In this document: piece by piece, positions 30,857 through 33,510 of the stretch
How positions within the stretch are numbered: position 1 is the stretch's first letter
Layout of the letters: every line of letters begins with the position of its first letter
From: Dehalococcoidia bacterium
GTDB lineage: Bacteria; Chloroflexota; Dehalococcoidia; SZUA-161; SpSt-899
NCBI GenBank assembly: GCA_028711995.1
Contig: JAQTRE010000021.1
Location: forward strand, 1 to 33,510
DNA length: 33,510 bases
Direction of reading: 5' to 3'
Notes under the pieces: generated by a model
The model's input: the letters and a program-made list of their open reading frames with translations, nothing else
Told to the model about the DNA's origin: nothing
Databases searched by the model: none
Translations under genes and position numbers: made by a program

Positions 30857-30897
30857 CAGCAGGAGAAATCCATTGAAAGTATGGGATGAAGGAAATG

Positions 30898-31512
30898 ATG
30901 GTTGATGATAACCTTTATCAAATACTCGGCATCAAGCTGGATGCAACTTCGGTTCAAATAAAGGAAGCCTATCGTTACAAGGCCGTCATACTGCATCCAG
31001 ATCGCCTTGCCAGTATGCCGGACAAATTCCGCGCTAGAGCGGAGGAGGACCTGAAAAAGGTCAACGCAGCATACGAGATTCTATCCGACCCGAACAAACG
31101 GCAGCAATATGATAGAATCATGGAAGCCCAGACGCCTGAAAATCAGTCATCACGTCAAGCACCCCGTCCATGCTCCGCATCAGATATTCCGGCTCACGGC
31201 CATCCCAGATACGAGGTCTATCCGAAGCACATAAATCTGAACAATGCTTTGGTCAATGTTCCAGAACATGGGGCGTTTTTCGTTGAGAGTTCGAACGGCC
31301 CCTTCACAAATGTCTGTTTGGCCTCATCGAAGCCGTGGCTAAAGGTGATCAGAACTACAGCCTTGGGATCTGGTGGATCCAGTTCGGTCATGAGGGTGGA
31401 TATTGAAGGTATAGGTTATGAATGGAATCAAAACTATGCTGGTGTGATTACCGTCAAACTTGACAGAATGCAAGCAGAGGTGAAGGTTAAACTCAGGACG
31501 TTGCGTTTCTAG
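30898..31512 (+). CDS. J-domain protein with C-terminal beta-sandwich-like domain
   Basis: Predicted Hsp70 co-chaperone of about 204 residues. Residues 1-75 are a J domain: NLYQILGIKLDATSVQIKEA, HPD in AVILHPDRLASMP, then EEDLKKVNAAYEILSDPNKR and QQYD. A short Ser/Pro/Gln-rich linker follows, then about 100 residues of alternating hydrophobic pattern (YPKHINLNNALVNVPEHGAF, NYAGVITVKLDRMQAEVKVK) resembling an immunoglobulin-like or BACON-like beta sandwich. There is no Gly/Phe or zinc-finger region, so it is a type III protein and not DnaJ itself. Several ATGs are possible; ATG 30898 is chosen for its AAGGA site, and 30886 is the alternative. No partner chaperone is nearby, though a CIRCE site lies 1 kb away. 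Confidence 0.82.
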   Translation: MVDDNLYQILGIKLDATSVQIKEAYRYKAVILHPDRLASMPDKFRARAEEDLKKVNAAYEILSDPNKRQQYDRIMEAQTPENQSSRQAPRPCSASDIPAHGHPRYEVYPKHINLNNALVNVPEHGAFFVESSNGPFTNVCLASSKPWLKVIRTTALGSGGSSSVMRVDIEGIGYEWNQNYAGVITVKLDRMQAEVKVKLRTLRF

Positions 31513-31693
31513 GCGTAATAAGGCTCGTTTTATGTTTCCTCAGATGATCAATGCGTACAAATCTCGCTGGCATTTCTATGGGCTGGGCAGAGCGTAGCGA
31601 AGAAGATATCTCGTCCGGTTCCTTCATATCTGCAGGCGTACTGCCATGACCAGAGTGTAAGGGGAAGGGATGAAATCGTCAAAAAGGGCAAGA

Positions 31694-32158
31694 TCAGCCC
31701 CTGCGGGGTCTGAGCCGGTTCTGGCTATCGAGGGGAATGGTCACCGGGCCATCGTTGTGGATTTCCACCAGCATGTGAGCCTGGAACTGACCGGTCTCCA
31801 CCTTGATTCCGGCGGAACGGAGAAGCTCGACGAAGGTCCGGAGAAGCGGTTCGGCCTTATCCGGGGGGGCGGCATCGGTAAAACTGGGACGGCGACCTTT
31901 TCGGGTATCGGCGCAGAGGGTGAACTGGCTAACCACCAGAATCTCGCCTCCGGTATCCTGCACTGAGAGGTTGAACTTCCCTTCGGCGTCATTGAAGATG
32001 CGGAGGGTGGTAATTTTGTCGGTGAGGTACTGGGCTTCGTCTTCAGTGTCTTCCGATTCCACTCCCACAAGTACCACCAGTCCCGGCCCGATCCGACCCA
32101 CGGTCTTCCCCTCGACACTCACTGAAGCCTGGGAGACTCGCTGGAGAAGCGCCCTCAT
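31694..32158 (-). CDS. dtd: D-aminoacyl-tRNA deacylase
   Basis: Hydrolyses D-amino acids wrongly attached to tRNA. The 154-residue protein is complete. It starts [18 protein letters not shown] and has [13 protein letters not shown], the signature [17 protein letters not shown] and, near the end, the [12 protein letters not shown] segment; the SQ and GP motifs form the chiral-proofreading site. Start and the FmdB stop overlap as TAATG, so both are translated from the same CIRCE-controlled message. Confidence 0.96.
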
Positions 32159-32504: not shown

Positions 32505-32531
32505 TTAGCACTCCCCGACAGAGAGTGCTAA
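32505..32531 (-). promoter_or_regulatory. CIRCE operator (HrcA binding site)
   Basis: Perfect match: TTAGCACTC, nine bases, GAGTGCTAA. It sits just after the -10 of the promoter at 32536-32564 and 48 bp before the FmdB start, the position expected for HrcA repression. An extra partial half site AGCACTT lies at 32541. Confidence 0.93.
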
Positions 32532-32535
32532 TTCA

Positions 32536-32564
32536 AATTTAGCACTTCCGTCTCTCTCTGTCAA
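32536..32564 (-). promoter_or_regulatory. Sigma-70 promoter of FmdB-dtd
   Basis: Minus-strand perfect TTGACA (32564-32559), 17-bp spacer, TAAATT (32541-32536; four of six). The -35 lies inside the last codons of thpR. With the CIRCE site it gives heat-shock-type control. Confidence 0.75.
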
Positions 32565-33135
32565 GAGAAATTGAGGCCAGGCAATTATAGATGGGTCCGC
32601 CCGGAGTGAGAGTGCTCTTCATCAGATGGATGCGGTCCACCTCGAAAGCGATCTGCTCCTTGGTTTTGGTCGCATCGAGCAACCTTCCCAGATCGCTCCG
32701 CTCTCTTGATGTTGCCTGGTCCCGAACCCGACCCAGAGTAAGGTGTGGTGAGAATTCTTTTGTCTCGGGGGCAAAACCCAGATGAGCCAGGGCTTGGTCG
32801 ATCTGTTTTTGTATGGTTGCGATCCTGGAAACTTCACCCCCCACCCCGATCCACACCACCCGGGGCGATCGCAGATTGGGGAATGCGCCTAATTCCTGCA
32901 GTGCCAGTGTGTAGGGCTGGACTTCTGAGGCGGTCTCTTTCATGGCCTCCGCTATCGCGGAGACTTTCTCTCCTGGGATGTTACCCAGGAACTTCAATGT
33001 CAGATGAATCCCATCGGGATCGACCCACTTGACGGCTCTCTCTTGACCTGCCCTGAGTTGGGAGAGCAGTCTGGACAGAACGGCCTTCACTTCTTTCGGA
33101 AGCTCGAGGGCAATAAAGGCTCGGATTTGTTCCAT
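32539..33135 (-). CDS. thpR: RNA 2',3'-cyclic phosphodiesterase (2'-5' RNA ligase family)
   Basis: 2H phosphoesterase acting on RNA ends carrying 2',3'-cyclic phosphate. The 198-residue protein opens RAFIALELPKEVK and carries the two catalytic HxT motifs: HLTLKFLGNI near residue 45 and HLTLGRVRDQ near residue 130, plus the usual VWIGVGG strand. ATG 33135 is taken; a TTG two codons upstream overlaps the stop of the preceding gene. Its 3' end contains the promoter of FmdB-dtd. Confidence 0.95.
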   Translation of the reverse strand: MEQIRAFIALELPKEVKAVLSRLLSQLRAGQERAVKWVDPDGIHLTLKFLGNIPGEKVSAIAEAMKETASEVQPYTLALQELGAFPNLRSPRVVWIGVGGEVSRIATIQKQIDQALAHLGFAPETKEFSPHLTLGRVRDQATSRERSDLGRLLDATKTKEQIAFEVDRIHLMKSTLTPGGPIYNCLASISLDRERRKC

Positions 33136-33137
33136 TT

Positions 33138-33510
33138 TCAAATTCCTAGGATGGTTTGAGCGTTTTCGCCCAGGATTTTATCTCTGCTTTTATTCGGGAT
33201 TTCCACCTTTTGCAGGTCATTGATGATTCGCTTCTGGGCGATGAGCGGATAGTCGCTGCCGAAAAGTATCTTATCTGCTCCAATGATAGCGGCAACGTGA
33301 GGGAAGATATCGTACTTGTAGAGGAACGGCGAGGCTGCCGTATCGAACCAGACGTGTTTCAGTGCCTGTGAAACCTCGGGCATTAAGGCATAGAATGGCA
33401 ACCCGCCGCCCCAGTGGGCGCACACAATCGGTGCATCGGGGAAGCTGGTGATGAACTGATAGAGCATGCCTGGCAGAACATTGCCTTTTCCAGCATAAGG
33501 ATGTCCCACT
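33138..33510 (-). CDS. Amidohydrolase-2 family protein, C-terminal part
   Basis: Metal-dependent TIM-barrel hydrolase or decarboxylase, truncated by the window edge so that the N-terminus is absent. The visible 124 codons have APIVCAHWGGGLPFYALMPE, in which His is a likely metal ligand, HVWFDTAASPFLY, and KILFGSDYPLIAQK, whose Asp is the C-terminal catalytic residue of the family, then a helical end. Substrate cannot be told from this part. It overlaps or abuts thpR, so the two are probably co-transcribed. Confidence 0.85.
   Translation of the reverse strand, partial: VGHPYAGKGNVLPGMLYQFITSFPDAPIVCAHWGGGLPFYALMPEVSQALKHVWFDTAASPFLYKYDIFPHVAAIIGADKILFGSDYPLIAQKRIINDLQKVEIPNKSRDKILGENAQTILGI

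Follow-up and report, generated by a model that had tools for sequence, protein, structure and literature searches.

The window analysed here, the whole stretch of 33,510 nucleotides, comes from a Dehalococcoidia genome of 3.32 Mb in 240 contigs (96% complete) and carries on its minus strand a CIRCE operator followed by fmdB, the gene of a small zinc-ribbon protein, and dtd, the gene of a D-aminoacyl-tRNA deacylase (Table 1). The Dtd protein has a full-length family match (positions 1-144 of 144 in PF02580) and a TIGR00256 equivalog score of 198 bits against a cut-off of 101.5. Its ATG shares one base with the fmdB stop codon (TAATG), and by all sequence signs dtd is probably co-transcribed with fmdB and may also be translationally coupled to it. 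Upstream of fmdB and on the same strand lie thpR and an amidohydrolase gene, in an order that is conserved in the window's family. Converging on dtd from the plus strand is a gene (30886-31512) whose 208-aa product begins with a J domain and has no Pfam match in its C-terminal part; a J-domain reading frame is also found directly after CIRCE-fmdB in another genome of the class (G132).

Table 1. Features of the fmdB-dtd locus in the window.
Feature	Position	Strand	Remarks
-35 hexamer TTGACA	32559-32564	-	of 23 CIRCE-fmdB loci compared in the class, 17 have this hexamer upstream of CIRCE
-10 hexamer TAAATT, TG just before	32536-32541	-	ends 4 nt before CIRCE
CIRCE operator, putative HrcA binding site, palindromic	32505-32531	-	TTAGCACTC-N9-GAGTGCTAA, 0 mismatches
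fmdB, Ruc-type, 99 aa	32158-32457	-	PF09723 48 bits; TIGR02605 61 bits
dtd, D-aminoacyl-tRNA deacylase, 154 aa	31694-32158	-	PF02580 200 bits; TIGR00256 198 bits
thpR, RNA 2',3'-cyclic phosphodiesterase	32539-33141	-	upstream of fmdB, same strand; profile match
terminator-like hairpin with T-rich tail, end of dtd	31688-31704	-	weak; number of such hairpins close to chance expectation

The first-pass annotation had proposed that a perfect CIRCE lies right after a TTGACA-17-TAAATT promoter and controls an FmdB protein and Dtd, and the locus bears out this arrangement: the operator has no mismatch and starts 4 nt past the -10 hexamer, the hexamers are spaced by 17 nt on the minus strand, and Pfam and NCBIfam matches support the identity of both genes. 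From CIRCE to the fmdB start there are 47 nt, which include a good ribosome-binding site (AGGAGG). The promoter looks like a housekeeping-type one and sits in the last codons of thpR, whose stop codon is the TAA with which the -10 hexamer opens. There is no second CIRCE site in the window even if three mismatches are allowed, and the number expected by chance is zero (100 shuffles), which together with the conservation described below rules out a chance palindrome. The CIRCE hairpin folds strongly in the leader, as it must by construction of the operator; a reading of the leader as an RNA thermometer was discarded, with pairing over the ribosome-binding site that is weak and, by eye, not kept in the g2 relatives.

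Control by HrcA and GroEL is established in Bacillus subtilis and other bacteria. Absence of hrcA had been named beforehand as an observation that would speak against such control here, but the genome does encode one HrcA (PF01628 match at C25:4985-5626, 146 bits), as the first gene of hrcA-grpE-dnaK. CIRCE sites with at most one mismatch occur three times genome-wide, before groES-groEL, before hrcA-grpE-dnaK and before fmdB-dtd, and a fourth CIRCE-like place has three mismatches. Sharing its operator with groESL and hrcA-grpE-dnaK, the fmdB gene of the window seems to be co-regulated with chaperone genes. The classical HrcA/CIRCE control of groESL and hrcA-grpE-dnaK-dnaJ (consensus in PMC545781) has the same operator sequence, the same promoter-proximal placing and an hrcA gene in common with this locus, though the genes controlled here would be fmdB and dtd instead. 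We consider it likely that fmdB-dtd adds a third operon to the HrcA regulon, one dedicated to a Ruc-type holdase and Dtd, in which case HrcA would bind the fmdB CIRCE and heat would induce both genes. Elsewhere, two close relatives (L014 and L016, around 1501-1527) share a CIRCE-like site with two mismatches, TTATCACTC-N9-GGGTGCTAA, 150 to 170 nt before a reading frame.

The arrangement was also expected to be kept in close relatives, and this is what we found. A perfect CIRCE precedes fmdB in 7 of the 8 genomes of the window's family (f1), spanning 4 genera, with dtd next in all 7, while the eighth genome, which gave no CIRCE-fmdB match, is 53% complete; the sister family f3, a member of the same taxonomic order, has CIRCE-fmdB-dtd in all 4 genomes. 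Across the 7 family genomes the CIRCE arms are invariant and the 9-nt loop differs among genera, and TTGACA with a -10-like hexamer 3 to 12 nt before CIRCE is present at 17 of the 23 loci compared in the class. With hrcA encoded in the genome and the CIRCE-fmdB-dtd arrangement retained among close relatives, the predicted HrcA control of the operon is well supported at the sequence level, and conservation in the window's family and f3 rules out a recent, genome-specific insertion of CIRCE. All four f3 genomes (L151, L162, L163 and L164) carry a G+C-rich hairpin with a T run between CIRCE and the fmdB start (e.g., GGCCTC-N6-GAGGC followed by T7), a terminator-like structure that is absent from the window's family and possibly an attenuator.

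Across the class, fmdB lies upstream of dtd in 38 of 76 dtd loci (37 by script plus G012), and just 7 of these 38 pairs have a CIRCE with at most one mismatch. Since most of the pairs lack a good CIRCE, heat control is not necessary for the pair, which either is wider than its heat control or has frequently lost it. Parsimony on the dtd tree gives 6 changes of CIRCE, with just 2 forced by well-supported branches, so that the tree says little about single versus repeated origin. In the single genome that represents family f2, CIRCE occurs twice, at groES and at hrcA, and dtd gave no match. Two genomes of the class, G019 and G132, have CIRCE-fmdB without adjacent dtd, and in Tepidiforma-type genomes dtd is around 1.3 kb away from it. 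At two further dtd loci, CIRCE lies upstream of dtd at ca. 1.3 kb (L193, 0 mismatches) and 0.3 kb (L224, 2 mismatches); no fmdB preceding dtd was detected there by script, although one with a variant start may have been overlooked. A strict pattern found CIRCE-fmdB in 11 of 147 class genomes, a lower bound because longer spacers and altered sites escape it (the f3 spacers of 57 to 60 nt were found by further searches), and in a phylum sample of 251 genomes none outside the class had a match, again as a lower bound; CIRCE-fmdB-dtd as a general Chloroflexota trait is not supported.

The FmdB protein of the window has cysteines at positions 8, 11, 27, 29 and 32, with a CxxC-N17-CxxC zinc ribbon at 8, 11, 29 and 32, a FKGxGFY motif, and a hydrophilic tail of 47 residues, of which 91% are disorder-promoting by composition. 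Other FmdB (CxxC_CxxC_SSSS) paralogues have the zinc-ribbon N-terminus in common with it, but in the four read in this genome we found neither the FKGxGFY motif nor a CIRCE. Hsp33 (HslO), the usual redox chaperone, is unrelated to FmdB in sequence but alike in proposed function, i.e., a zinc-controlled holdase activated by oxidation. No Hsp33 was found in the source genome, in agreement with a previous survey in which all 22 Chloroflexi examined had homologues of the Mycobacterium tuberculosis protein Ruc (Rv0991c) and Hsp33 was rare or absent there (PMC7448276). Ruc has zinc cysteines at 8, 11, 29 and 32 (mutated in that study), the 17-residue gap and a disordered tail; its gene is directly repressed by HrcA and induced by heat, and the oxidised protein prevents aggregation and aids the refolding of clients by DnaK (PMC7448276). 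The operon rv0991c-rv0990c is one of the HrcA operons of M. tuberculosis (PMC8557902). This system thus resembles ours in the FmdB-family ribbon, the cysteine positions, the disordered C-terminus, the HrcA operator in the promoter and a regulon shared with groES/groEL, whereas its second gene is rv0990c instead of dtd, ruc is additionally driven by SigH (PMC7448276, PMC8557902) and the promoter in the window is of housekeeping-type appearance, and the window protein has Cys 27 beyond the four Ruc positions. As judged from its sequence, which passes the tests for the Ruc family, the FmdB of the window is Ruc-type, and it would be expected to act as a chaperone.

When GTDB species genomes were scanned with a pattern in which an FmdB start follows the CIRCE core, CIRCE-fmdB was found at no fewer than 117 loci in several phyla. 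Chance would account for about one of these or fewer, as estimated roughly from 12 fixed CIRCE bases, 31 spacings and a total of a few hundred thousand FmdB genes. By record titles, the matches listed are mostly Actinomycetota, then Chloroflexota (Dehalococcoidia and Tepidiforma), with single records of Acidobacteria, Ignavibacteriales, Bacteroidetes, Rubrivirga, Myxococcales, Deltaproteobacteria and Armatimonadota. One record titled Bifidobacterium breve (L116) has an FmdB resembling that of Nanopelagicales-type records, and its title may reflect a mislabelled metagenome bin. Among 112 near-complete proteins in the matches listed, 111 have a [FYIL][KS]GxG[FW] motif after the ribbon and 87 the exact Cys 8-11-29-32 spacing, and their tails average 95% disorder-promoting residues. 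Chloroflexota are the only phylum among the matches listed with dtd near CIRCE-fmdB; in Actinomycetota and the other phyla, no dtd was seen adjacent to it.

We propose that a housekeeping-type promoter drives fmdB-dtd and that HrcA, kept active by free GroEL, would sit on CIRCE at the transcription start and block it until unfolded protein occupies GroEL; HrcA would then lose activity and transcription of the operon could proceed. Of its two products, the Ruc-type protein, encoded first, would release its zinc upon oxidation, hold unfolded proteins and pass them to DnaK, while Dtd, encoded second and presumably translationally coupled, would clear mischarged tRNA of D-amino acids and glycine. 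Deacylation of D-aminoacyl-tRNA is the established function of the Dtd family, and the cell may benefit from raised Dtd, but we think that it is chiefly the chaperone for which the operator has been retained. This explanation is favoured by the promoter-CIRCE layout, the presence of hrcA, the CIRCE sites of the chaperone operons, conservation, the match to the Ruc cysteines and the failure to find Hsp33; against it count possible read-through from thpR, Cys 27, the many class pairs without CIRCE and the lack of a strong phenotype upon ruc deletion in M. tuberculosis (PMC7448276).

How far dtd itself matters to this control is where the readings diverge. HrcA control may have been selected for fmdB (ruc) alone, with dtd a mere passenger carried along in an fmdB-dtd pair that is old in the class, and we lean slightly towards this version, which refines the explanation above, so that the confidences in the two overlap. 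It agrees with fmdB preceding dtd in half of the class dtd loci with or without CIRCE, with CIRCE-fmdB lacking an adjacent dtd in Actinomycetota, other phyla, G019 and G132 (and the distant dtd of Tepidiforma-type genomes), and with the M. tuberculosis partner gene being rv0990c and not dtd (PMC8557902), but the stop/start overlap or very short gap at most loci of f1 and f3 means that dtd output should track the operator. Conversely, the operon could mainly tie heat shock to Dtd proofreading with FmdB in an accessory or regulatory role, as would fit a dtd that by all signs belongs to the fmdB transcription unit and a pair conserved across many class families. We regard this as improbable, given that fmdB and not dtd is the constant CIRCE partner across phyla among the matches listed, that FmdB of the Ruc type has a published chaperone function (PMC7448276), and that no publication was found that ties HrcA to dtd. 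The first-pass annotation had similarly linked heat-shock control to translation quality control, which holds insofar as dtd is the second gene of the operon; it is for this reason only that proofreading is involved, and the main link runs from HrcA to a predicted redox chaperone and protein folding because the first and constant gene encodes the Ruc-type zinc-ribbon protein.

It is far less credible that CIRCE is a relic or chance palindrome to which HrcA does not bind, leaving fmdB-dtd constitutive or transcribed by read-through from thpR. While the position of the promoter inside the thpR 3' end would suit such a scenario, intact arms around a variable loop in all 7 family genomes are the pattern of selection on the arms, and no site is expected by chance.

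With HrcA control of an FmdB-family gene, M. tuberculosis ruc, already published, CIRCE before fmdB is an established kind of HrcA target. The view of the locus as a departure from the usual groESL and hrcA targets therefore stands for the arrangement but not as an isolated oddity, given the ruc precedent (PMC7448276, PMC8557902) and its occurrence at 117 or more loci. Our literature search did not find FmdB together with CIRCE and HrcA, and for the CIRCE/HrcA regulon with Chloroflexi the sole match concerns, by its title, Myxococcus. FmdB as a name is absent from the Ruc paper (PMC7448276), which may be why the HrcA-FmdB link is easy to miss. What appears newer is the predicted co-control of dtd by HrcA in Dehalococcoidia and the breadth of CIRCE-fmdB. 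One might go further and suppose that HrcA of Dehalococcoidia deliberately raises Dtd and a redox chaperone together in heat or oxidative stress and that CIRCE-ruc is a widespread, little-noticed branch of HrcA control in several phyla, a proposal that we advance only tentatively and with considerable doubt. If true, it would constitute a regulatory tie of protein folding to aminoacyl-tRNA quality control, of which we found no description. The sequence signs of the HrcA-Ruc link, which according to the papers found is experimentally known from M. tuberculosis only, recur in Dehalococcoidia and several other phyla. This supports Ruc as a regular member of the heat-shock regulon of HrcA in bacteria that lack Hsp33, and the locus described here provides a concrete case of a tRNA-proofreading gene under the predicted control of a heat-shock repressor.
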